From a virus: 27,391 bases of DNA. The notes below the pieces were generated by a model. The model saw nothing but the letters and a program-made list of their open reading frames with translations. It ran no database searches and had not been told where the DNA came from. The stretch is taken from the IMG/VR virus record IMGVR_UViG_3300045922_000612, positions 1-27,391 of that record. One strand, given 5' to 3'. Shown here piece after piece: positions 5,445 to 26,733 of this stretch (position 1 is the first letter of the stretch; each line of letters starts with the position of its first letter). The position numbers and the translations under genes are program-made.

Positions 5445-6089
5445 ATGGCACGCAAACGGATGGTGGATGAAGCCGGGAATCTGCTTCCATCGCGCAAGAT
5501 GGAGGTGTTCCTCGGGCTGCACGAGATCAAGCTGACTGAGGACGACTGGATCGTGCCCAGCACGGACAGCAAAGGGCACAGCTCCACGATCCGCGCCAGC
5601 ATCCCGCCCTCGCTGCACCGCGTGGTCCAGGAGTTCGTGCAAAGCCAACAAACGCCCTTCCGCACGGACAGCGACTTCTTGCGGTTTGCCGTCTGGATCA
5701 CAGTACGCCTGCTGCAGAATCGGCTCGACACTTTGCCGCCCAGCGTGCTGATGGCTGCCGATGCCATCGTGCGCGTGGTCCGTGACCACGAGCAGTCCAT
5801 GCTGATCCACGAAAGCCTCCAGAACGCGGCCCGGATGTGCGAGCAGTTGATGGCCGACAACGATGTGCAGGCGCTGCACACACGCATTGCCTATATCGAC
5901 ACCGTGTTACGCAACCTGAGCCCCACAAGCCGCTGGCGCCGCAAGTTCGCCGCGCAGTGGAAGGCCGCCAGCCAGAAATACCGCGACTGGATCCAGTCAG
6001 AGATCCGCGCCGGGCACCTGGAGCAGGGAGGACTCGAGCTCCATGAAATCCTAGGGGAACGCGACAATGAGGAAGCACCAGCCTGCTGA
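5445..6089 (+). CDS. Hypothetical protein with possible ribbon-helix-helix-like segment
   Basis: A 214-residue mainly helical protein. Residues ~46-85 run as a short strand (STIRASIPPS), a helix (LHRVVQEFVQS) and a second helix (TDSDFLRFAVWIT), the order of a ribbon-helix-helix DNA-binding unit, though the match is loose. The C-terminal part has long helices with many Arg and Trp. The last 23 bases overlap the helicase gene, suggesting coupled synthesis. Confidence 0.7.
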   Translation: MARKRMVDEAGNLLPSRKMEVFLGLHEIKLTEDDWIVPSTDSKGHSSTIRASIPPSLHRVVQEFVQSQQTPFRTDSDFLRFAVWITVRLLQNRLDTLPPSVLMAADAIVRVVRDHEQSMLIHESLQNAARMCEQLMADNDVQALHTRIAYIDTVLRNLSPTSRWRRKFAAQWKAASQKYRDWIQSEIRAGHLEQGGLELHEILGERDNEEAPAC

Positions 6090-7611
6090 GAGCTTTTTCT
6101 CCGATATCAACCCCAACAAGCGCTACCAGCTCCGCATTGCGGACACCGTGCGCCCGGCGCAGGCCGCCATGGCTGATCACATCCTGCTGGACGGGCTGGG
6201 AGTCACGGTACACAGTGCGCCCACAGGCACCGGCAAAACGCTGGGCTACCTGCTGCCCAGCTTTGAAACCGGCTCCCGCACCATCGTGCTCACCGCCACC
6301 AAGGCGCTGCAGGATCAGATCCTGGACGACTTTCAGGGCCGTTTCGCCGATCTGCGCGGCGGGCGCAACTTCGAGTGCGTCAACATCCCCGGCGCCACAT
6401 GCGATATCGGCCACAAGGCAGGATGCCCGCAGCACAATTTCACCGTCTCCTACACGCTGTGCCCCTACATGCAGCAGTTCCGCACGGCTGGCGTGCTCCG
6501 CTTCGCTGTGACGAACTATGCGATGTGGTTTGCTTTGCGGCGCGTGGAGCACCCGATCATTCAGAACTACCAGACCGTGGTGTGCGATGAAGCGCACGCG
6601 TTGGTGGATCTGCTCACGCAGGCCGACACCGCCGAGTTCCGCGATGAGGATGCGGAATGGCTCAAGCTGCCATTCCCAAAGCCTGAGCTCAAAGCATGGC
6701 GCAACTGGGCGCAGAAAGTGGAGCCGGTGCTGGCGATGTACGAGGACAGCGCAAAGCACTTGCATAGCGTACGAATGGCTTCCCGCTGTGACCGCGTGCG
6801 CCGCGCAGTCGATGCGCTTTCGCGCATCCCGGAGAAACCCAAGGAGCACGTCATCTACTCAAGCGGCGGCTGCACCATCATCTCCCCTGTGTGGCCCAAG
6901 CAGAGCTGGGAGCGGTACTTTTCCGGCATCCCTTCCGTCGTGCTCGCCTCCGCCACCATCACCCGCGAGATCTGCTCGTTCCTCGGCTTCCGGCCAGGGC
7001 GGTATCGCTACTGGGAGTACGACAGCGGTTTCCCGCCAAAGAACGCGCCCGTGTATGTGTACTCCGAGCCCGTTCTGAAGCACGGCATGGATCCGGCGCT
7101 GCTGGAGAAAGTGCTGGAGAAGGCAGTGCGCATTGCGGGCAGGTACCCGCAGCGCGGCATCGTGTTCACCGGCAGCTATGAGCGGGCGAAAGCGTTCATG
7201 GAGACGTGGGCCAGATGCGGCGATCCCACGCGGGCAGTGTTCACGCATGCCAACAGCAGTGATCTGCCAGCCGCTATTGAAGCCTTCAAGCAAACCGAAG
7301 GCGCGGTGCTGGTGAGCCCCAGTATCAGCACCGGCTACGATTTCCCGGACGATCTCTGCAGATTCGTCATCGTCATCAAAGCGCCGTACCCGGACATGAG
7401 CAATCTCATCGTCCAGGCGCGGATGAATCGCAGCCAGACCTACATGGACGCGCAGATGGCGCTGACACTGATACAGGTTTGCGGTCGCGGAGTCAGGCAC
7501 GAGCACGACCTCTGCGACAGCTACATCCTCGACGGCGCGGTCGCACGCACACTGCGCTCGCGCCCCGGGGTCTTTCCCGAGTGGTTCCGCCGCAGAATCC
7601 AGACATTCTGA
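6067..7611 (+). CDS. XPD/DinG-type Fe-S superfamily 2 DNA helicase
   Basis: A 514-residue ATP-driven helicase. Motif I is APTGTGKT (K57). Four cysteines, C104, C112, C120 and C132, lie between motifs Ia and II where XPD, DinG and Rad3 bind a 4Fe-4S cluster. Motif II is DEAH (174-177); motif VI is QVCGRGVR (about 469-476). This set defines the Fe-S 5'-3' helicases. At 514 aa it is shorter than DinG, with a compact arch region. In context (nuclease, Sak4, XPF-type nuclease) it probably unwinds recombination or replication intermediates. Start ATG 6067 has AGGGGAACGCGAC upstream. Confidence 0.93.
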   Translation: MRKHQPAESFFSDINPNKRYQLRIADTVRPAQAAMADHILLDGLGVTVHSAPTGTGKTLGYLLPSFETGSRTIVLTATKALQDQILDDFQGRFADLRGGRNFECVNIPGATCDIGHKAGCPQHNFTVSYTLCPYMQQFRTAGVLRFAVTNYAMWFALRRVEHPIIQNYQTVVCDEAHALVDLLTQADTAEFRDEDAEWLKLPFPKPELKAWRNWAQKVEPVLAMYEDSAKHLHSVRMASRCDRVRRAVDALSRIPEKPKEHVIYSSGGCTIISPVWPKQSWERYFSGIPSVVLASATITREICSFLGFRPGRYRYWEYDSGFPPKNAPVYVYSEPVLKHGMDPALLEKVLEKAVRIAGRYPQRGIVFTGSYERAKAFMETWARCGDPTRAVFTHANSSDLPAAIEAFKQTEGAVLVSPSISTGYDFPDDLCRFVIVIKAPYPDMSNLIVQARMNRSQTYMDAQMALTLIQVCGRGVRHEHDLCDSYILDGAVARTLRSRPGVFPEWFRRRIQTF

Positions 7612-8402: not shown

Positions 8403-8978
8403 ATGCCTGCACGACTCATCCGGCAAGGGCCGCTCGAGCTGGGGCGCGATCCAGGGCGCCCCTCTGGTATCCATCTCTCCGCACTGGTACACGCCGCCAT
8501 TGAGCGTGCTGGCGCGGGTTACCGCAACTCGGGCGGCCCGCCGGACGACCGGCTGCGGCTGGCAATGCAGATTGGGCTGGCGTGGGAGGACTGGTACGGG
8601 CCGCGCATCGAGGGCGCGATCTACCACCCGGGCAGCCTGCTGTACGAGGATGTCTGGTACTCGCCGGATGCGCTCGACATGGACCGGCTGATCTTGCATG
8701 AGATCAAAACCACCTCGCGCACGCCGCGCGGTCAGGATCCCTTTCAGACACTGCGCTGGAATCTGCAGGTGCAGGGCTATCTGTGGTGCTTGGGGCAGGG
8801 CGATTGGACGCGGGCACAGATCCATGTGCTCTACCTCGGCCAGCCCCCAGCGCCGGTGCTGGAAGTGTGGGAACGCGAGTATGGCGTGGAAGAGTTGAAA
8901 CGCACCTGGTATCAGGTGCTCGAGCCAATGAAGGAATTTGTAGAGGGAGAGAAAAATGGCAACGAAGAGTGCGAATAG
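8403..8978 (+). CDS. PD-(D/E)XK nuclease of the Cas4/RecB type
   Basis: A 191-residue nuclease. It shows the RecB-family signature: GLAWE (G58-E62), an acidic residue around D89-D92, then HEIKTTS (E100-x-K102), and a QxxxY helix (Q122-Y126). These bind metal and cut DNA. Phage relatives make 3' overhangs for single-strand annealing or trim ends. It lacks the cysteines of Cas4 iron-sulfur nucleases. The gene overlaps the following Sak4-like ATPase by 23 bases, an intimate coupling typical of phage recombination modules. Start ATG 8403; an in-frame GTG at 8392 is possible. Confidence 0.88.
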   Translation: MPARLIRQGPLELGRDPGRPSGIHLSALVHAAIERAGAGYRNSGGPPDDRLRLAMQIGLAWEDWYGPRIEGAIYHPGSLLYEDVWYSPDALDMDRLILHEIKTTSRTPRGQDPFQTLRWNLQVQGYLWCLGQGDWTRAQIHVLYLGQPPAPVLEVWEREYGVEELKRTWYQVLEPMKEFVEGEKNGNEECE

Positions 8979-9738
8979 CAAACCTCAGTTCAAGAACTTT
9001 GCGCCTGTAGAGAAGGACACTAGGCCCACGCTCAGCGTGTGCAGCTACGGCCACGAGAAGCGCGGCAAGACCTACTGGGCGTTGTCCGCGCCGGGACCCG
9101 TCGCCATCATCAGCTCCGATGCTGGCACGGAAGCCACGGTGCGCGTGTGGCAACGCGCCGGGAAGGACGTGTTATTGTTCCGGCACATTGTGCCGCCCGC
9201 CGGGCAACGCATCGAAACCTACGAGGAGGCATGGGACAAGGTTTCGCAGGCGATGTACGAGGCGATGGAATCGTCTTACTTCCGCACCATCGTGATCGAC
9301 ACCGCCACGGAAGTGTGGGAACTGCTCCGGCTGGCGCGATTCGGGCGCCTGACCCAGGTGTTGCCGCATCACTACGGCCCGGTCAACGCCGAGTTCCGCT
9401 CAGTGATCAATAAGACCATCGCTTCTGGCAAGAACAGCGTGTGGATCCACAAGGTGAGGAAGGTTTACAAGACCAACAAAATGGGCTTGGACAGCTGGAC
9501 TGGCGAGTGGGAGCGGTCCGGCTTCTCCGATTTCGGATACATCATCGATCTGATCATCCGGCACGACATTGTCGAGGGCGAGTTCGCGGTCGATGTGATC
9601 GATTCGCGCTACCGCACCGCGCATGTGAATGGCCGCCAGTACCGGGGCGCGGAGGCGCTGTTCCCGGCTCTCGCCTTGGAGCTGCGGCCTGAAACCAGTT
9701 GGGAGGACTGGAGCGACGGCGTCGATTACGCGGAGTGA
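8956..9738 (+). CDS. Sak4-like RecA-fold ATPase (AAA_24)
   Basis: A 260-residue phage recombination ATPase. The P-loop GHEKRGKT (G32-T39) is followed by a Walker B strand, TIVIDT (D115). Size and a RecA-type core with no long N-terminal domain fit the Sak4 family, minimal RecA-like proteins that load on ssDNA and stimulate annealing with SSB. A cysteine-protein or kinase role is unlikely. It sits between a RecB-like nuclease and an XPF-type nuclease. Start ATG 8956 has GGGAGAGAAAA upstream. Confidence 0.85.
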   Translation: MATKSANSKPQFKNFAPVEKDTRPTLSVCSYGHEKRGKTYWALSAPGPVAIISSDAGTEATVRVWQRAGKDVLLFRHIVPPAGQRIETYEEAWDKVSQAMYEAMESSYFRTIVIDTATEVWELLRLARFGRLTQVLPHHYGPVNAEFRSVINKTIASGKNSVWIHKVRKVYKTNKMGLDSWTGEWERSGFSDFGYIIDLIIRHDIVEGEFAVDVIDSRYRTAHVNGRQYRGAEALFPALALELRPETSWEDWSDGVDYAE

Positions 9739-9742
9739 TCCC

Positions 9743-10477
9743 GTGATCATACTGGACGACCGCGAAGGCAGCCGCGAGCTGGCAGACTCGATCCGCCGCG
9801 CCGGTATCGAGTGCGAGGTGCAGCGCATGGAGTACGGCGATTGCTGCTGGATCGGCAACGGCCCCGAGGGCCCGTGCCTGATCGGCGTGGAGCGCAAAAC
9901 CGTGCAGGATCTGCTGGCCAGCATGCGCACCGGGCGCCTGGTCGGCCACCAGCTCGCGGGCATGAGCGAGGAGTATCACGCCATGTACCTCATCGTGGAG
10001 GGAATGACGCGGGAGGATCCCGACTCCGGGCTGCTGCTGCACTACCGGCGCGGGAAGTGGGACGAAGTGCGTGTCGGCCAGCAGCGGTTCATGTGGTCGG
10101 AGTTGGAAGCGTACCTGACCAGCATCGACAGTCTCATTGGTATTCACGTCCGCCGCAGCGCCACGCCACGCGAAACAGTGAACCTGATCCGCACGCTGTA
10201 TCAGTGGTGGCAGAAGAGCTGGGAGCAGCACGCTGCGCACAAAGTGCTCTACACGCCGCTGCCGCAGCATTCACTGCTGGTGAAGCCCAGCGTGCTGCGC
10301 CGGGTGGCGGCGCAGTTGCCCATGATCGGTTATGAGCGCAGCGGCGCCGTGGAGAAGCGCTTCCGCACCGTGTTTGTGATGGCCAATGCTGACGAGAAAG
10401 CCTGGCGCGAGATCGAGGGTATCGGAAAGGGGATTGCGGCAAAGGTGGTGAAAGCGATCCGGGAGAACGTGGAATGA
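9743..10477 (+). CDS. ERCC4/XPF-type structure-specific nuclease
   Basis: A 244-residue nuclease beginning at GTG 9743, four bases after the previous stop. The ERCC4 active site is clear: DDRE at residues 5-8, GD at 32-33 and the ERKxxxD signature (E50, R51, K52, D56). A helix-hairpin-helix near the C-terminus (WREIEGIGKGIAAKV) would grip branched DNA. Stand-alone nuclease-HhH proteins of this kind cut forks, flaps or recombination joints. With the Fe-S helicase 5' of it, the pair resembles the XPD/XPF repair partnership in reduced form. Confidence 0.9.
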   Translation: MIILDDREGSRELADSIRRAGIECEVQRMEYGDCCWIGNGPEGPCLIGVERKTVQDLLASMRTGRLVGHQLAGMSEEYHAMYLIVEGMTREDPDSGLLLHYRRGKWDEVRVGQQRFMWSELEAYLTSIDSLIGIHVRRSATPRETVNLIRTLYQWWQKSWEQHAAHKVLYTPLPQHSLLVKPSVLRRVAAQLPMIGYERSGAVEKRFRTVFVMANADEKAWREIEGIGKGIAAKVVKAIRENVE

Positions 10478-11460
10478 GGAGCAAGGAGTGCCCATGGTAT
10501 GTTGCCGGGCTATGCCCGGACAGTGAACGTATCCCTGACACGAACGCAGGCAACCATGCGCGGCTGTTCGTGGTGCTGCCCTACTTCACTGATCCTCGCT
10601 ACGAGGAAGCGGTGCGCCTGCTGTGCGCGATGTCCGGCACCGATCCCCGCAGCGTGATTGTCAGCCGCGAGCTGGGCTGCGTGGTGGGCGAAGCAGTGGA
10701 GGCCGCCGCCGTGGAGCACTGCGCCCAAACCCGGCTCGCAAACAGCATCGGCCATAGCGGCGCAGGCGCGGTGTTCGCGATTGGCCGGGGCCCGAGCGGG
10801 CACCGTTACCCCGTGCCTGCCGCCTTCGCGCCGGATCCGCGAGATTGCCCGCCGCGAGAAGCGCTGCCCGCATGGGTCCGCGCATGGGGCCGGGCGCTGG
10901 AGCTCTCCGCATCGGTGCCCGGTGTGATCTGGCACCCCGCGCCGGAAGTGATGGTCGAGGAGATGGAGGGGGCAACAGAGATTGTGATGCACGCAGCGGA
11001 TTCAGGGCGCGGTGTGAGCTGGACATGCTCGCTGGGCCGCGTCTACGAGTCCCAGGCGGAGCTTGCGCCGGTGCTGGCGGAAGGCAAAACCATCATTACG
11101 CTGGATTCAGCGTCACTGCTGGCAATGGATCCTACGCTGTTTGTCGGCGACCTGGTGGATCTCGCCATGGAGTACGCGCTTCCCATCCGACGCGAGCGGA
11201 ACCGCTCCGCATGGAGCGAGTGCGTATCGAGGTCGGCATGGGGCGAGTGGGTCTCCGCGCTGGTGGAGGCCGCCGAGATCCTCGATCCAGGCGCGGTGGA
11301 CCGCATCATGGATGATCCGCTGGACGCGGTAGCTGAACTCGACATCGGCGCGGATCTGCTCGAGATCGCCGGGCCGCCGCCGGACACCGTGGGCGATCCG
11401 CACGCAGCATTGCTCACGGACCGCGCAGCCAGGCTCTGGACACTGAGGAGGCGGAAATGA
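10474..11460 (+). CDS. Hypothetical protein
   Basis: A 328-residue protein with no recognised family. The N-terminus has a CPWYVAGLC Cys pair. A mixed alpha/beta core follows, with an acidic helical C-terminal third. An 8-residue stretch repeats imperfectly (NRSAWSECV and SRSAWGEWV, residues ~243-259). ATG 10474 and the end at 11457 both overlap neighbours as ATGA, so it is translated as part of the recombination operon. No catalytic motif could be identified. Confidence 0.7.
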   Translation: MRSKECPWYVAGLCPDSERIPDTNAGNHARLFVVLPYFTDPRYEEAVRLLCAMSGTDPRSVIVSRELGCVVGEAVEAAAVEHCAQTRLANSIGHSGAGAVFAIGRGPSGHRYPVPAAFAPDPRDCPPREALPAWVRAWGRALELSASVPGVIWHPAPEVMVEEMEGATEIVMHAADSGRGVSWTCSLGRVYESQAELAPVLAEGKTIITLDSASLLAMDPTLFVGDLVDLAMEYALPIRRERNRSAWSECVSRSAWGEWVSALVEAAEILDPGAVDRIMDDPLDAVAELDIGADLLEIAGPPPDTVGDPHAALLTDRAARLWTLRRRK

Positions 11461-13841: not shown

Positions 13842-14233
13842 ACCCTGTGCAGCTTGCTGTCAGCAAGAGCAAAGCAGCCGATCTGCAAACCGCGATGGCG
13901 GAAGCCCAAGCGGCGAAGTGGCGGACGATCAACAAAGAGGGAGAGACGAAGCGAAGGCTGGATGACATCTGGCACGAGGCGCGGCGGCAGATGGTGGCCG
14001 AGTTCCGCAAGACGTTCAAGCGCCGGAAATGGCGCGGGCTGTCGGTCTCGTTCCAGGGTGAGGGTTACAGCATCGATTGGAGTTCCCAGCCATATCATGT
14101 CAAGGGATATTTGGCCTACAGGGTCCACTGGCACGGCGCAGAGATTTACCACCAGTTCGGGGCTTACTCGATGGAGGACATCAAATCCGAAGCCCGGCGC
14201 CTGAAACGCGTGTTGGAGGCGTGGGACGAATGA
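13832..14233 (+). CDS. Hypothetical protein
   Basis: A 133-residue protein starting at ATG 13832 after GAGGAGGAATC, overlapping the zinc gene by 10 bases. Residues 1-75 are helical and charged. The C-terminal ~55 residues alternate short strands (SVSFQGEGYSIDW, YLAYRVHWHG) with a final helix. Frame 2 is open back to 13595 but that part is a shadow of the zinc gene. It ends as ATGA against the methyltransferase start. Confidence 0.6.
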   Translation: MWIDPVQLAVSKSKAADLQTAMAEAQAAKWRTINKEGETKRRLDDIWHEARRQMVAEFRKTFKRRKWRGLSVSFQGEGYSIDWSSQPYHVKGYLAYRVHWHGAEIYHQFGAYSMEDIKSEARRLKRVLEAWDE

Positions 14234-15348
14234 CATTCGGCTCGCTGTTCGCTGGCATCGGCGGCATCGACCTGGGTTTGGAGCTTGTAGGCATGGAGTG
14301 CCGGTGGCAGGTGGAGATCCACCCGTTCTGCCGCCGCATTCTGGAGAAGCATTGGCCGGAGGTGAAACGCTATGAAGACGTCCGCACGATTGACCCGGAA
14401 GAGCTCGAGCCGGTCGATCTCATCTGCGGAGGTTTCCCTTGCCAGGATGTCAGCCTCGCCGGACAGAGAAAGGGTATTGAGGGTGCTCGCTCAGGCCTTT
14501 GGTCTGAGTTCGCCCGCATTGTTCGCGGTGCGCGGCCCCGATGGGTGCTCGTGGAGAACGTGCCAGGCCTCCTTGTTCGGCACGGAGGGACAGCAGCCGG
14601 AATTGCCAGAGTTTGCGGCGAACTGGCCGGGCTCGGGTATGTGGGATGCTGGCGCAGCCTACGAGCTGCAGATGTGGGGGCCAGCCACATCCGAAAGCGG
14701 ATCTTCATTGTGGCCTACCGTGCTCAACCGGGATTACAAGATGACCAGTGCGCCGATCCGCAAGGACACGGGCAAGCACCGGCTGAACCAGCTGCCGGTG
14801 GCGGCGATGCTGTGGCAGACGCCAAGCGCGGATCCGTTCCGCAGCCGGGGCGGGAGCCGGAAGCACGAGATGGGGCTGGACAAACAGGCGCGGATCGGCT
14901 TCTGGCAGACGCCGCTTGCGAGGGACGGCATCAAGGCTCCGACTCCTGCAGTCGATCTCGCAAGCGTAAAGAAGGGGCGATACAAAAACCTGAATGCGCA
15001 AATAGCGGACTCATGGCAGACACCACTGGCCAAGCACGCGAAGCCGAGCTTGCGAGCCGAGGAGAACTGCACGCCGCGTTCGCTTCTAACGCAAGTCAGC
15101 CGATTTTCCCTCCAGGGCCAGGCGATCCGGAATGGGAGCGAGTCCTCAAGGTCCGACCCGATCTTGCGCCGGCGCTTGAACCCCCGCTTCGTGGAATGGC
15201 TCATGGGGTTCCCGATTGGCTGGACCGAGCCATGAGCCATCGCGCCAAGCGCATTACGGCGCTGGGCAATGCTGTGGTGCCACAGTGCGCGGCAGTGATT
15301 GGCCGGGCGATATTGCAGGCAGAGGAGGCGCTCCAATGCGCATTGTGA
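14230..15348 (+). CDS. C5-cytosine DNA methyltransferase
   Basis: A 372-residue enzyme that would methylate cytosine at C5. Motif I is FAGIGG (7-12), the cofactor-binding acidic residues follow, and GGFPCQ has catalytic C71. Motif VI is ENV (109-111). Motif VIII-like HIRKRIF and the C-terminal ALGNAVVP motif complete the fold. Between ~200 and 320 is a Gln/Gly/Ala-rich variable region where the target recognition part sits. It probably protects the DNA from host restriction; recognition sequence unknown. Start ATG 14230 overlaps the preceding stop. Strikingly, an alternative frame inside it also looks coding (see 14372-15235). Confidence 0.92.
   Translation: MTFGSLFAGIGGIDLGLELVGMECRWQVEIHPFCRRILEKHWPEVKRYEDVRTIDPEELEPVDLICGGFPCQDVSLAGQRKGIEGARSGLWSEFARIVRGARPRWVLVENVPGLLVRHGGTAAGIARVCGELAGLGYVGCWRSLRAADVGASHIRKRIFIVAYRAQPGLQDDQCADPQGHGQAPAEPAAGGGDAVADAKRGSVPQPGREPEARDGAGQTGADRLLADAACEGRHQGSDSCSRSRKRKEGAIQKPECANSGLMADTTGQAREAELASRGELHAAFASNASQPIFPPGPGDPEWERVLKVRPDLAPALEPPLRGMAHGVPDWLDRAMSHRAKRITALGNAVVPQCAAVIGRAILQAEEALQCAL
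14372..15235 (+). CDS. Overlapping protein in the +1 frame of the methyltransferase gene
   Basis: A 287-residue frame wholly inside the methyltransferase. Its features match a phage family I know beside or within C5 methyltransferases: GLSSPALFA, SWRTCQASLFG, NWPGSGMW, WPTVLNRDYK, repeated WQTP blocks, and an end LNPRFVEWLMGFPIGWTEP. Random shadows rarely carry such connected motifs. A perfect ribosome site, GGAGGTG (14358-14364), lies 7 bases before ATG 14372; M26 (ATG 14447) starts the part that resembles the family. The first 25 residues are Ser/Arg-rich shadow-like. Function unknown; possibly a methyltransferase partner or specificity factor. Confidence 0.6.
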   Translation: MKTSARLTRKSSSRSISSAEVSLARMSASPDRERVLRVLAQAFGLSSPALFAVRGPDGCSWRTCQASLFGTEGQQPELPEFAANWPGSGMWDAGAAYELQMWGPATSESGSSLWPTVLNRDYKMTSAPIRKDTGKHRLNQLPVAAMLWQTPSADPFRSRGGSRKHEMGLDKQARIGFWQTPLARDGIKAPTPAVDLASVKKGRYKNLNAQIADSWQTPLAKHAKPSLRAEENCTPRSLLTQVSRFSLQGQAIRNGSESSRSDPILRRRLNPRFVEWLMGFPIGWTEP

Positions 15349-21629: not shown

Positions 21630-21832
21630 TCGCAAGCGGGAACGCTACAGAATTCTACGAGTTCGCGAAGAAACACCCGGATTCCGCGTTCGGTTCAGTG
21701 TTTCTGGAGATCTGGAACGCAGAGATGAAGAAGGCGCTGGAAGGCCGCAACGTGTCGCGGGAATTCTTCCTGGCGCTGCACGAGATCGTATGTGCTGAGG
21801 CCGCGCACATGGCGATGGAGCGGATCCGGTGA
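21626..21832 (+). CDS. Small hypothetical helical protein
   Basis: A 68-residue, largely helical protein starting at ATG 21626 after AGGAGGGAGTC. Ends one base into the start of the ParB-like gene. No family recognised; frames opening further upstream are shadows. Confidence 0.6.
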   Translation: MIASGNATEFYEFAKKHPDSAFGSVFLEIWNAEMKKALEGRNVSREFFLALHEIVCAEAAHMAMERIR

Positions 21833-22572
21833 TGCGCATCATCACATGCGATCCCCGGCACCTGATCCTCGACGCCAACCTGCGGCCCGGCGACTGGCGC
21901 GTGGATGACATGGTGGCGGACCTGCTCGCGGCTGGCCGCCAGCTCCAGCCCATCGGCATCACGGAGGACAGGCGCGTACTGTTCGGCTTCCGCCGCGCCG
22001 CTGCGCTGCTGCGCATCTCAGAGCGCGAGATGGTGCCAGCGGGCCACCCGTTGCGGAGCGCCGCCTGCGCCGTGCTGGACGGCGATATCGACGGCGTCGA
22101 CCGCGTGCGGCTGCAGCTGCTCGAGAACACCGCGAGGCTCAACTACAGCCCCATGGAGGAGGCGGCCATCATCCAGCAGCTCCGCGCCGCCGGTTACAAG
22201 ATGGAGACTGTGGCGCAGATGTTCCGGCGCACCAAGGGCTGGGCGTCGCAGCGGCTCGCGCTGCTGAAGCTGCCGCCGGACGTGCAGGCGATGGTGGGAG
22301 AGCAGATTGCGCCGTATGAGGCCTACCTGCTGGCGCAGATGCCGGAAGCGCGGATGCGGCGGCGCGTGGCCGCCATGCTGGAAGCCGCGCCCAAGCGCCA
22401 TGACGTGGCCACGCAGCGGCGCCGCAGCCTGCTGCGCGAGCTGGAGAACATGCCGGTGCGCGGTCCGGCACGGCCACTGATGCAGGCGCTGGTGGGACTT
22501 CTAAAAGGTGAAACCACGGTCCAGGAGTTCGTTGGCCGGGTCGAAAAGCTTGTCAGTGATTCGAAGAGGTAG
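21832..22572 (+). CDS. ParB-like protein
   Basis: A 246-residue member of the ParB/Spo0J superfamily. The N-terminal ParB fold has GFRRAAA (52-58), the equivalent of the CTP/DNA-contact GERR box, and ENTARLNYSPMEEAA (98-111), the canonical second box. A helix-turn-helix follows (~119-160, YKMETVAQMFRRTKGWASQRLALL). In phages such proteins serve partition of plasmid prophages, regulate genes or act as nucleases. No ParA gene is in the window. ATG 21832 directly follows the previous gene; an in-frame GTG at 21829 is possible. Confidence 0.8.
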   Translation: MRIITCDPRHLILDANLRPGDWRVDDMVADLLAAGRQLQPIGITEDRRVLFGFRRAAALLRISEREMVPAGHPLRSAACAVLDGDIDGVDRVRLQLLENTARLNYSPMEEAAIIQQLRAAGYKMETVAQMFRRTKGWASQRLALLKLPPDVQAMVGEQIAPYEAYLLAQMPEARMRRRVAAMLEAAPKRHDVATQRRRSLLRELENMPVRGPARPLMQALVGLLKGETTVQEFVGRVEKLVSDSKR

Positions 22573-22575
22573 CAC

Positions 22576-24735
22576 ATGCAGGCAAGGGCTCTACTTACGT
22601 TCCGCGATGGCATCTGGGTGTGGCTGGGAGGCTACGATACCATAGATATTCCGAAACAGGCAGGCTTCGCTTGGGACCACAACCGCAAATTTTGGTGGAC
22701 GGATTCCGCAAAACGCGCATTGAAGCTCAAGAACTATTGCGACGTTTCAGCCGCTGAAGCGCTGAACGAAGCCCACCGCGCCGAGCGCCGGGCGCTGGAG
22801 GAAAGCAGCGCCATCACAGCCGACATCGACATCCCAGCGCCCAAGGGCCGCAGCTATATGGAGTTCCAGAAGGCAGGCGTGGCTTATGCTTCGCGCCGCA
22901 CCGGCACCCTCATTGCCGACGAGATGGGGCTAGGAAAAACCATTCAGGCGCTGGGCCTGGTCAACTATGACCGCAGCATCGAGAAGGTGCTTGTGGTCTG
23001 CCCGGCCAGCTTGAAGATGAATTGGGCACGCGAGGCCGAGAAGTGGCTCGTGCGCCCGTTCCGTATCGGTATCGTTGAGAGCAAAGTGTGGCCGCTCAAC
23101 GGCAACTTCATTATCATCAACTACGACATCCTGGACCGCCACATCGACCGCATCCGCGCCACGCCGTGGGATCTGGTTGTGCTGGACGAGGCGCACTACA
23201 TCAAGAGTCCTGACGCCAAGCGCACAAAGCTGGTGCTGGGCGAGAAGAAGTGGGACAGCATGCGCCGCGCGTGGGACGTGAAGGCGCCGCCGATCCCGGC
23301 CCGCGTGCGGCTGGCGCTGACCGGCACGCCGATTCTCAACCGCCCGCAAGAGATGTGGTCGCTTGTGGAGTGGTGCCTGATGGACAAGCCGGTGTACCAG
23401 CGTTTCGAATATTTCCGCAGCCGGAGCAAGTTCTGGCAGAGGTACGCCGACTGGCACGAGAGCCGCTACGGCTGGGAGTTCGGCTCGCCGCAAAACCTGA
23501 GCGAGCTGCAGGAGCAGGCGCGGCTGACGTTCATGATCCGCCGCACCAAGAACCAGGTGCTCCTTGACCTGCCGCCCAAGCGGCGGCAGGTGATCGAGAT
23601 CAGCAGCGAGGGCTTCGAGGGCGTGCTCCGGCGCGAGCGCGAGATGTACGAGCGGCAGGCCGAGCGGCTGGCCGAGGCGCAAACCAAGTTCCTCATCGCC
23701 AAGGCCAGCGGCAACGATGAAGAGTACGAGCGGGCAATTGAGGAGCTCAAGGAGGCGCAGCGGGTGCCGTTCGAGGAAATGTCGGCCATCCGGCACGAGG
23801 TCGGCCTGGCTACGGTCCGCGCTGCCAAGGGCTTCCTCAGAGACACTATCGAGGGCATCGAGAAGGCGGTTATCTTCGCACACCACCACGATGTGATCGA
23901 TGAGCTGATGGCCATTGCCAGCGAAGCGGTGCGCAGCGATGATGGCGAGTTCGCGGTCAAGCTCACCGGCGGCATGAGCGCGGCAGCCAAACAGGCTGCC
24001 GTGGATGCGTTTCAAACAAACCCGAAGGCTCGTGTTTTCATCGGCAGCATCACTGCCGCCGGCGTCGGAATCACCCTCACTGCGGCCAGCCACGTTATCT
24101 TTGTCGAGCTCGACTGGGTGCCCTCCAACATCCAGCAGGCCGAGGACCGCTGCCACCGCATCGGCCAGCGCGACTGCGTCAACGTGCAGCATGTGGTGCT
24201 GGAAGGCAGCATGACTGCTAGGATGGCCAAGGTGATCGTGGAGAAGATGACATCGATCCGCGAGGCAACCGAGAGCGAATACATGCGATCGCACCTCAAG
24301 GAAGTGGTTACGCCTGTGGAGGCCGTCAGCTCTGCGCATGCTGAAGTCAAAACCATGCGCCGCGAGACCATCAAGGCCGAGGCGCAGGCGCTCACCGCCC
24401 GGCAGATCGATATCATCTACGCCATGGTGCGGGCCATCGCCTTCCAGTGCGATGGAGCGCGGACGGAGGATTGCGTTGGGTTTAACAAGTTCGACAGCGT
24501 CTTTGGCCGCACCATAGCATCAAGGCCACGCGAGCTGTTCACGCCGGGCCTTGCGGTGGTCACGGCCAAGATGCTGCGCAAGTACTGGCGGCAGCTGATG
24601 CAGTACTTCTCGCCGCAAGAGATCGACGAGGTTTACGGCGCAGGCGAATATGACCGCTGGCGCAGCAGGCGCAATCCGGCAGGCGAGGCGGAGGAGGACT
24701 TCACGCGCGAGCTGGAGCGCAACGCAGACTGGTAA
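22576..24735 (+). CDS. SNF2-family helicase-like ATPase
   Basis: A 719-residue Swi2/Snf2 protein. Motif I is DEMGLGKT (115-122), motif II DEAH (204-207), and motif VI QAEDRCHRIGQRD (521-533), all canonical. The ~90-residue N-terminal region (WAWDHN..FWWTDS-type aromatic block) resembles the substrate-binding piece of SMARCAL1-like annealing translocases, though the match is loose. Phage members translocate on duplex DNA and aid replication restart or recombination. The ParB-like gene is immediately 5' of it, with 3 bases between. Its stop is adjacent to the minus-strand gene's stop, convergent with no gap. Confidence 0.93.
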   Translation: MQARALLTFRDGIWVWLGGYDTIDIPKQAGFAWDHNRKFWWTDSAKRALKLKNYCDVSAAEALNEAHRAERRALEESSAITADIDIPAPKGRSYMEFQKAGVAYASRRTGTLIADEMGLGKTIQALGLVNYDRSIEKVLVVCPASLKMNWAREAEKWLVRPFRIGIVESKVWPLNGNFIIINYDILDRHIDRIRATPWDLVVLDEAHYIKSPDAKRTKLVLGEKKWDSMRRAWDVKAPPIPARVRLALTGTPILNRPQEMWSLVEWCLMDKPVYQRFEYFRSRSKFWQRYADWHESRYGWEFGSPQNLSELQEQARLTFMIRRTKNQVLLDLPPKRRQVIEISSEGFEGVLRREREMYERQAERLAEAQTKFLIAKASGNDEEYERAIEELKEAQRVPFEEMSAIRHEVGLATVRAAKGFLRDTIEGIEKAVIFAHHHDVIDELMAIASEAVRSDDGEFAVKLTGGMSAAAKQAAVDAFQTNPKARVFIGSITAAGVGITLTAASHVIFVELDWVPSNIQQAEDRCHRIGQRDCVNVQHVVLEGSMTARMAKVIVEKMTSIREATESEYMRSHLKEVVTPVEAVSSAHAEVKTMRRETIKAEAQALTARQIDIIYAMVRAIAFQCDGARTEDCVGFNKFDSVFGRTIASRPRELFTPGLAVVTAKMLRKYWRQLMQYFSPQEIDEVYGAGEYDRWRSRRNPAGEAEEDFTRELERNADW

Positions 24736-24897
24736 TCATGATTGCCACACCACCCGCCCCCAGCCATCCATAATGCGCACGCGGCGGCCCAAGGCTACTA
24801 GCGCCATTGCCCGGGCCGCCGCCTGCTCCCACGTCATGTGTTCGCTGTCGTCGTACCAGTGCTCACGGTAGAGGCAGCGGTACTGCACGGTCCACAT
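24736..24897 (-). CDS. Small 53-residue protein
   Basis: A short gene on the minus strand, 3 bases after the stop of the larger gene, ATG at 24897, TGA at 24738-24736. The sequence begins MWTVQYRCLYREHWYDD, followed by an Ala-rich helix (TWEQAAARAMALVALG) and ends DGWGRVVWQS, a beta-alpha-beta pattern like several small cassette proteins. The tail of the upstream gene supplies AATAGGG as a weak ribosome site. Confidence 0.55.
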   Translation of the reverse strand: MWTVQYRCLYREHWYDDSEHMTWEQAAARAMALVALGRRVRIMDGWGRVVWQS

Positions 24898-24900
24898 GCC

Positions 24901-26733
24901 CTATTGTTTATCACGCTCTTCTTCATCCTGCTTGGCCCAGATTTCGTCGGCGTGGAAGAACTCGGTCAGGAACTTCTCCCACTTCTGCGGCGTCTGGCTC
25001 ACCACGGACCAGATCGGCGGATAGCTCTTGATCAGCGTAGCCACAACATCCTGCCCGTACTCGAGCACGGCGTCGTAGACCTGCCGCCCGCTGGTGTTCG
25101 CGCCGAACATGCCATTGTCGGTGAGCTCGATCAGCTTCTCGGCGAACTCCGCGCCGCTCTCGCCGTTGTTGAAGCTAACCAGGATGGGCCTTTCAATCAT
25201 CCGCAAGAACAGTGTGAAGCGATCCATCGCGCTCTGCGCCTCCTGTTGTTGATGTTGATTCTGTGCTGGCATCCCTTCGCCCGTTGTGGGCGCCGCCGCC
25301 TGCTCCGCTGCCGGTGCTGCTTGCGGTGGCGCTGGCACCGGCTCCGGCTTGCCTGTTCCTGTTTTCGCCACGGCGAGGTTATGCATGGCGTTGGCGAAGT
25401 ACACGCCCAGCACGTTGAGCCCCTGCACGAGCAGCGGCGCATACTTCATCCAGGCGGGCTCCTCCGGCTTGTCATTGTCCAGCCCCAGCAGCTCGCGCAG
25501 CTCTTCCTTTGCGCTGGCCATCTCGCGCAAGCTTTCGATCAGGCTTTTGGGTTTCTCCGCGACAGCCACCGCGCCGGGATTGGGAGCCGGTGCCTGCGCT
25601 GCTGCTGCCTGCTGCTGCGCCATGCGCTCGATCAGCCCTTCGAGCGACCGGATGCGCTCGTTCTGAATTTGAAAGATCATCTCGACATATTTCTTTTCCG
25701 CTTCCAATGCTTGCGGCGGCGCAACAGGCTGAGGCTGGATCAGATCCTTAAGCACGCCCGCAACTTCCTTGATGCTGGCCAGCGGGTTGGCATTCTGCTT
25801 CTGCAACTCCATCACCTGCTTCACGCTCTCTTCCATGATCTTGGCTGCGCTCTGCGTGGCGCTGGCGCTGGCCACTGTCATCAGATCCAGCAGCTTTTCC
25901 GGCAGCCGGGTTTCGCCGCTGGGCTGTGTCTCGCGCGTCTGCTGCGCAACGTGCAATACTTTGTCCGTCATCCGGTCCACAGTGCTGGCAAGCTGTTTGA
26001 TCGCCTCTGCATTGGCCATATCGTCTTCCTTCCTTTCTTCTCTGTTAGCTGTGTTTCCCTCCTTGATCCTGGCTTCCTGCTCCGGCGTCAGCATGCCTCT
26101 GCTGCGGGCCCAAAGCAGATAGCTCTGGTTGGACTTGTCATCGAAATCCAGATCCGCGATGTTGAGCACCGGCGGGAACTCGTTCAGTTGCCGGGCCCCC
26201 AAGTTCTTCAGGTGGCAGTTGGTGATGTTGAGGTTTTTGCTGCCGCTGTCGTTCAGCCGCAGCCAGTAATCGCCGCAGCCGAATGAGCGCAGGATGTCAT
26301 CCGGCATCATCACGCCGTCGTAAACCTTCGTGACGTGCCTCTTGTTGTCCATCATGGCCGGCCAGCCACGGTAGATGTAGACCACGACGCGATCCCGGAA
26401 TTCTTCCCGCTCCATGAGCGATTTCCAGTAACGGAAGAATTCCATGGGCTTGCCAGTTTCCTTCTGGGCCTCGTCGTGGAAGAACCGCACCGGGGCTTTG
26501 GGGAACGGCTTCATTGTCTGCGACGGCTTGCCTGCCCTGCGCCGGCGCAGGCTGGGCTCTGGCACCGGCTTGTCCAGCGGCAGTTCTGCCTCTGCATCAT
26601 CTGTGGGGGTTACGATCTGGGGCGGGCTGTACTCTGGCTCAGGCTCGGCGGCCTGCTCCTGTTCTGCGGCGACGATCTCGTCGATGGCTTCTTCGTCCGG
26701 GTCTGGCGGAAGCGGTTTTACTTCTTCGGGCAT
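24901..26733 (-). CDS. Large phage protein with low-complexity and coiled-coil regions
   Basis: A 610-residue protein. The N-terminal ~75 residues are Pro/Glu-rich. Residues ~80-220 form a globular domain (FFRYWKSLMEREEFRDR; YIYRGWPAMMDNK; LRSFGCGDYWLRLND) that I have the impression occurs in other phages without known function. A helical/coiled-coil middle (~235-400), an Ala/Pro/Gln linker (~470-510) and a helical C-terminus follow. ATG 26733 is chosen because AGGAGGTGTG precedes it. Plus-strand frames across this gene are low-complexity shadows. A virion or scaffold role is possible but unproven. Confidence 0.75.
   Translation of the reverse strand: MPEEVKPLPPDPDEEAIDEIVAAEQEQAAEPEPEYSPPQIVTPTDDAEAELPLDKPVPEPSLRRRRAGKPSQTMKPFPKAPVRFFHDEAQKETGKPMEFFRYWKSLMEREEFRDRVVVYIYRGWPAMMDNKRHVTKVYDGVMMPDDILRSFGCGDYWLRLNDSGSKNLNITNCHLKNLGARQLNEFPPVLNIADLDFDDKSNQSYLLWARSRGMLTPEQEARIKEGNTANREERKEDDMANAEAIKQLASTVDRMTDKVLHVAQQTRETQPSGETRLPEKLLDLMTVASASATQSAAKIMEESVKQVMELQKQNANPLASIKEVAGVLKDLIQPQPVAPPQALEAEKKYVEMIFQIQNERIRSLEGLIERMAQQQAAAAQAPAPNPGAVAVAEKPKSLIESLREMASAKEELRELLGLDNDKPEEPAWMKYAPLLVQGLNVLGVYFANAMHNLAVAKTGTGKPEPVPAPPQAAPAAEQAAAPTTGEGMPAQNQHQQQEAQSAMDRFTLFLRMIERPILVSFNNGESGAEFAEKLIELTDNGMFGANTSGRQVYDAVLEYGQDVVATLIKSYPPIWSVVSQTPQKWEKFLTEFFHADEIWAKQDEEERDKQ

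Follow-up and report, generated by a model that had tools for sequence, protein, structure and literature searches.

At the locus described here, two overlapping reading frames appear to encode an obligate two-chain C5-cytosine methyltransferase of the M.EcoHK31I kind, a reading to which we assign a probability of about 85%. The DNA analysed, called the window below, is 27,391 nt long and comprises positions 1–27,391 of the virus record IMGVR_UViG_3300045922_000612. Its methyltransferase gene encodes a chain (MT) that carries motifs I–VIII and X, and an open reading frame lying entirely within that gene encodes a second chain (WP), which ends in motif IX. WP is almost certainly a selected protein, and very probably a subunit of the MT enzyme.

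Two Reading Frames in One Stretch of DNA

The features of the two chains are listed below, with the basis for each in brackets.

14230–15348, + strand: MT, a C5-cytosine methyltransferase chain of 372 aa with motifs I–VIII and X, from ATG 14230 to a stop codon ending at 15348 (Pfam, PHROG and M.HhaI matches)
14358–14364, + strand: GGAGGTG, putative ribosome-binding site of WP, inside the MT codons for WPEV and 7 nt before ATG 14372 (sequence; enrichment of Shine-Dalgarno plus ATG in relatives)
14372–15235, + strand: WP, a second chain of 287 aa read +1 relative to MT (PHROG 1008, 8.7e-24, over nearly the full length; shuffle test)
14437–14445, + strand: MT motif IV, PCQ, with the catalytic Cys (sequence)
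14549–14566, + strand: SWRTCQ, conserved in WP, close to where WP constraint begins (consensus of the relatives' alignment; constraint map)
14554–14562, + strand: MT motif VI, ENV (sequence)
14686–14715, + strand: MT motif VIII region, HIRKRIFIVA, where the M.HhaI-like part ends (sequence)
14708–14734, + strand: WP W-x-T block 1, LWPTVLNRD (sequence; block counts)
14746–15093, + strand: MT linker, residues 173–288, predicted to be disordered, its DNA constrained in the WP frame (pLDDT; codon-position pattern in relatives)
14810–14836, + strand: WP W-x-TP block 2, LWQTPSADP (sequence)
14900–14926, + strand: WP W-x-TP block 3, FWQTPLARD (sequence)
15011–15037, + strand: WP W-x-TP block 4, SWQTPLAKH (sequence)
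15170–15229, + strand: WP motif IX, RRLNPRFVEWLMGFPIGWTE, at the WP C-terminus (hhalign against canonical motif IX)
15265–15282, + strand: MT motif X, GNAVVP (sequence; helix at pLDDT 86–96)

MT matched the Pfam family DNA_methylase (1.1e-48) and PHROG 363 (5e-76), and its residues 3–176 matched residues 14–184 of M.HhaI. An earlier, sequence-only reading of this DNA had proposed both frames, the second with its coordinates, the PCQ, ENV and GNAVVP motifs, and a GGAGGTG site 7 bases before ATG 14372, all of which we found in the sequence as claimed. It had also proposed that the frames share about 790 bases; the overlap is real, and its length is 864 nt, that is, all of WP. Its further remark that two motifs are locked together near the end is likewise borne out, since the same DNA is read by MT as 'GMAHGVPDWLDR' and by WP as 'EWLMGFPIGWTE'.

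The AlphaFold model of MT was confident for residues 1–170 and for the motif X helix (pLDDT 86–96), and the linker at residues 173–288 was mostly at pLDDT 31–43, with residues 177–288 below 50 and without a fold. The small lobe of a C5 methyltransferase is the seat of target recognition and of motif IX. Because the linker is unfolded in the model, and because only about 165 residues of the model align with M.HaeIII or M.HhaI, MT seems to have no small lobe, and the canonical motif IX (LTPRE-x-x-R-L-Q-G-F-P) is absent from the MT frame. A monomeric C5 methyltransferase has motifs I–X in one frame and a foldable recognition domain; MT has neither.

Selection on the Second Frame

An open second frame can arise as an untranslated shadow of MT, with motifs that mirror conserved MT codons and high G+C. 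MT synonymous codons were permuted 1000 times and each resulting frame was scored against a WP profile of the relatives built without the window sequence. The shuffles averaged 43.4 bits (sd 10.5, maximum 80.7), which shows that the WP motif pattern is in part an MT shadow, though only in small part: the real WP scored 190.9 bits, which exceeds the shuffle mean by 14 sd. In the window alone, the +1 frame from ENV to motif IX contained 0 stops against 2.06 expected, and the probability of its being open, 0.048, is by itself no strong argument against a shadow. No near relative of the window was found (the best is at about 51% in WP), and for this reason the evidence for selection comes from the family.

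Scans with WP queries yielded 292 loci, and in 291 of them WP overlapped a methyltransferase with a +1 phase; selection by WP similarity makes this set biased for a stop test. The test was therefore repeated on 80 loci picked solely by the N-terminal 163 residues of MT, 75 of them measurable. A +1-frame motif IX conforming to a fixed MG[F/Y/W]P-like pattern was present in 61 of the 75, and reading by eye added roughly nine loci, so that about 70 of the 75 sampled relatives carry it. Between ENV and motif IX, these 61 loci had 2 stops in the +1 frame, compared with 134 expected under synonymous shuffling, and the −1 frame of the same loci, used as a control, had 399 against 416 expected. In four loci with a canonical in-frame motif IX (L351, L355, L356 and L360; RLTPVECERLQGFPDGWT and similar), +1 stops numbered 35 against about 46 expected, and there is therefore little or no +1 depletion where the arrangement is missing.

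Substitution rates at MT codon positions 1/2/3 were compared in 34 disjoint pairs of relatives. Upstream of the overlap they were.069/.043/.244, and past the end of WP.101/.065/.228, so that before and after the overlap we see ordinary MT coding. Over motifs VI–VIII within the overlap both frames were constrained (.116/.035/.155), and the WP frame dominated in the linker (.197/.067/.062) and around motif IX (.147/.064/.071). Fourfold sites of MT followed the same course, changing at.274 upstream,.154 over motifs VI–VIII,.016 in the linker,.039 in the motif IX zone and.241 downstream, and the WP fourfold sites in the linker changed at.211. Amino-acid change in the linker was.23 for MT vs..094 for WP. 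With MT synonymous sites at 1.6% and WP synonymous sites at 21%, we concluded that the linker codes for WP.

These patterns weigh directly on the shadow explanation. Third MT positions in the linker are as conserved as second ones, and the most variable positions are the first, which are third positions of WP; selection on MT alone is thereby excluded. The frame is also kept in low-G+C Paenibacillus phages. On the grounds of stop depletion, substitution patterns and shuffle scores we rejected an untranslated shadow for the family, and we regard it as hardly credible for the locus at hand. The sequence-only reading had proposed a second, selected partner protein of the methyltransferase, and had named as evidence against it a lack of homologues with an intact second frame, or stops appearing freely in that frame in close relatives that keep the first. 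The frame is kept in homologues and stops are rare in it, and stop depletion, frame-specific substitutions, enrichment of internal starts and a second-frame motif IX all uphold the proposal. Its suggestion that the second frame may shape the linker is confirmed by MT synonymous sites that are nearly frozen there while the MT amino acids drift.

The MT frame, for its part, had 0 stops in the linker against 426 expected under WP codon shuffling, in a set for which an open MT frame was a requirement for entry. Among MT-selected loci uncut by a contig end, motif X was missing from the MT frame in only 2 of 77.

An Internal Start or a Frameshift

A finer map from 62 pairs placed WP constraint from about 12 codons before ENV to just past motif IX, and because constraint begins that early, WP is an open reading frame of its own rather than a frameshift tail alone. 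A Shine-Dalgarno sequence plus ATG in the WP frame was present in 75 of 208 relatives, compared with 11 expected, and any usable WP-frame ATG in 190 of 208, compared with 81 expected. Ribosomes would also start at the internal GGAGGTG–ATG (14358/14372) to produce WP.

A programmed +1 frameshift after motifs I–VIII would instead give one chain that includes motif IX, with no need for an internal start, and the WP frame does take over right at the end of the MT catalytic domain. However, WP constraint is already present over motifs VI–VIII, where a shifted chain would still be reading the MT frame; the internal Shine-Dalgarno plus ATG is enriched 7 times; and a +1 product would be without motif X in most loci. 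We consider a frameshift decidedly improbable.

Motif IX on the Second Chain

A profile of such WP ends aligned with the canonical form of motif IX in related phage enzymes (hhalign 93.5%, E 2.3e-7), and canonical phage motif IX in turn aligned with M.HhaI from residue 271 onwards (RKLHPRECARVMGYPDSY); the link between WP and M.HhaI motif IX is made through these canonical phage enzymes as intermediates. These alignments identify the C-terminus of WP as true methyltransferase sequence, namely motif IX, read in another frame. The sequence-only reading had called WP overprinted, which holds insofar as it is a second-frame protein; it is not a de novo gene, for such a gene is without homology to known domains and the WP C-terminus is motif IX. 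WP had no match in Pfam or NCBIfam, PDB searches with the WP profile and with a 25-residue motif IX profile returned nothing relevant, and outside the C-terminus no known domain was found by Pfam, NCBIfam or PDB profile search. Modelled alone by AlphaFold, WP had a mean pLDDT of 57, and only its motif IX helix was confident. This poor model fits a chain that might fold on its partner, and proves nothing. The W-x-TP blocks, of which the window WP has 4, number from 0 to 8 among relatives.

One might suppose that MT is active alone as an unusual C5 methyltransferase, with 'GMAHGVPDWLDR' before GNAVVP as its own motif IX. The GVP-x-W/R-LDR found before motif X loosely resembles the G-F/Y-P of the canonical motif, and the MT frame stays open up to motif X. 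Against this, the motif IX zone is constrained in the WP frame, as the position rates and the MT fourfold rate given above indicate, and amino-acid change there is larger in MT (.168) than in WP (.099). An MT that works without WP is thus very unlikely.

WP could also be a genuine overlapping protein that does something else, for example as a regulator or an anti-restriction factor, rather than an enzyme subunit. No informative fold or PDB match constrains what WP does, and one relative (L252) encodes a WP-like +1 protein despite having motifs IX and X in the MT frame. Nevertheless, WP ends in the very motif that MT lacks, MT itself offers no recognition domain able to fold, and of the 292 loci found with WP queries none had WP without MT, with the same +1 phase in 291. 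A separate function therefore seems improbable to us, and we favor WP as a subunit of the MT enzyme.

Variants and Breadth Among Relatives

Several variants were each seen on a single metagenomic contig. In L320 motif X is read in the WP frame, and stops then appear in the linker of the MT frame, a suggestive variant that would fit a two-chain enzyme. L252 has motifs IX and X in the MT frame together with a +1 WP-like protein bearing SWKTSQ-like and LPTP blocks. In L297 and L077 an indel moves MT and WP together with the +1 phase kept, and these frame breaks look like indels or sequencing errors. With one contig apiece, L252, L297 and L077 are suggestive of natural variants.

The arrangement also occurs in cultured phages of Paenibacillus, in Mycobacterium phage SG4 (gp64), Synechococcus phage S-H1, Sulfitobacter phage phiGT1 and Lacticaseibacillus phage R9.1, as well as on two plasmids, one from Leptospira and one from Paenibacillus polymyxa. 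Some annotations do list the inner frame, calling it an 'internal gene' or another methyltransferase, and databases mostly list one half. Our literature search found no paper describing or explaining this phage overlap.

Some individual loci deserve mention. In a prophage of E. coli PCP07014 (L372, 3367–4128) a dual-coded member is broken, with stops near each other in both frames, and its annotation is that of a pseudogene interrupted by a stop. On the P. polymyxa plasmid pAP1 (L377, 690–2180) the +1 frame contains two copies of the motif IX segment LNPxWVECLMGFPLxWT, which looks like a duplication of the 3′ portion of the gene. A canonical-looking methyltransferase (L334, 2501–3600) has motif X in the MT frame and a textbook motif IX (RRLTPAECERLQGFPDGWT) in +1, representing either a pair of compensating shifts or an early stage of a possible frame split. 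In L057 (1720–3250) an HNH-endonuclease-like open reading frame (GEVVHHIDGNRQNNHAKNLCVLSRRKHNQIH) sits inside the methyltransferase gene and breaks the MT frame, and the WP frame is open through the insert; the hidden HNH in the ShiLan methylase insertion (PMC11855218) may be compared.

Other Genes in the Window

Elsewhere in the window, an ERCC4-domain nuclease (9629–10477) adjoins a Sak4-like annealing protein (8956–9738), and with the DEAD/Helicase_C_2 helicase at 6067–7611 these form, by their predicted domains, a recombination module. An SNF2-family helicase (22576–24735; PHROG 62, 8.9e-99; Pfam SNF2-rel_dom, 7.4e-32) has a ParB-like protein (21829–22572) directly upstream. Two long open reading frames, at 24838–26286 (482 aa) and 10474–11460 (328 aa), had no PHROG or Pfam match.

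A Proposed Two-Chain Enzyme

The dual open frames, selection on both of them zone by zone, the partition of the motifs and the predicted disorder of the MT linker are directly supported by the data above. In the enzyme that we propose, the MT chain would bind AdoMet and catalyze through motifs I–VIII, continue as a long unfolded tether and end with motif X. WP would supply the absent motif IX at its C-terminus and, most likely through its W-x-TP region, the target-recognition surface. WP would dock on MT, and the chains would assemble into the usual two-lobed enzyme. The linker DNA would then be selected almost solely for WP, with the MT frame merely kept open to reach motif X.

That WP is translated, that two chains assemble and that WP recognizes DNA we infer from sequence patterns. 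Target recognition is probably held by WP, given that the MT linker has neither fold nor constraint, that WP is constrained there, and that the number of W-x-TP blocks varies. The sequence-only reading had likewise suggested a possible role of WP in target specificity, a well-reasoned proposal. On a broader scale, we would put even odds on the proposition that, for phage C5-cytosine methyltransferases of this broad class, a separate +1-frame protein is in most cases the DNA-recognizing half. Under that reading, the number of W-x-TP blocks would reflect exchangeable recognition modules, with motifs IX and X mobile between frames.

Split C5 methyltransferases are known as a kind, if little noticed, and the 1995 precedent is one restriction enzyme. 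The apparent novelty lies in the frequency of the split in enzymes of phages and in the seeming placement of recognition on a second-frame chain. If this is true, phage cytosine methyltransferases that form a large class are annotated as one chain, and would be handled so in cloning and assays, though they need two; tests with a single chain would fail for that reason. Few examples of extended dual coding on one strand in double-stranded DNA phages would be as well supported as this locus, and it would offer a testable division of labor in which MT catalyzes and WP recognizes. Naturally split enzymes of the M.EcoHK31I type already serve as tools for targeted methylation (PMC3439449), and varied natural split pairs would hence be of practical value.

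Comparison With Known Systems

In Paenibacillus phages, Shelly gp56 ('g55 internal gene') and Leyra_62 are +1 open reading frames inside a cytosine methyltransferase and end in LNPEWVECLMGFPIGWTD; they are annotated only as hypothetical protein or DNA-cytosine methyltransferase, with no mechanism given. PHROG 1008 is labelled 'DNA methyltransferase', a label that makes no mention of a second-frame reading and appears to stem from association.

M.HhaI and M.HaeIII are monomeric, with one chain in one frame, unlike MT and WP. In M.AquI the alpha and beta chains complement each other, the smaller of them bearing motif IX (PMC3404938). The small chain of M.AquI bears motif X too, whereas GNAVVP here is in the MT frame, so that the large chain carries X; the partition in L320 is M.AquI-like.

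M.EcoHK31I is a two-polypeptide C5 methyltransferase that recognizes YGGCCR (Lee, Kam and Shaw, 1995, cited in PMC3404938), with motifs I–VIII and X on the large subunit and motif IX on the small one (PMC3404938). MT and WP divide the motifs in the same way, a likeness drawn from the published description and not from sequence, as the M.EcoHK31I sequence was not identified when sought in E. coli genomes and plasmids. In M.EcoHK31I, too, a different frame of the large-chain gene encodes the small chain, a trait that WP shares. M.EcoHK31I belongs to a restriction-modification system, in contrast to the phage gene encoding MT and WP. Its recognition domain was predicted, in the published account, to lie in the large subunit, which differs from our reading that WP probably recognizes the target: here the large-chain linker is unconstrained and predicted to be disordered, and it is the small chain that holds the constrained region.
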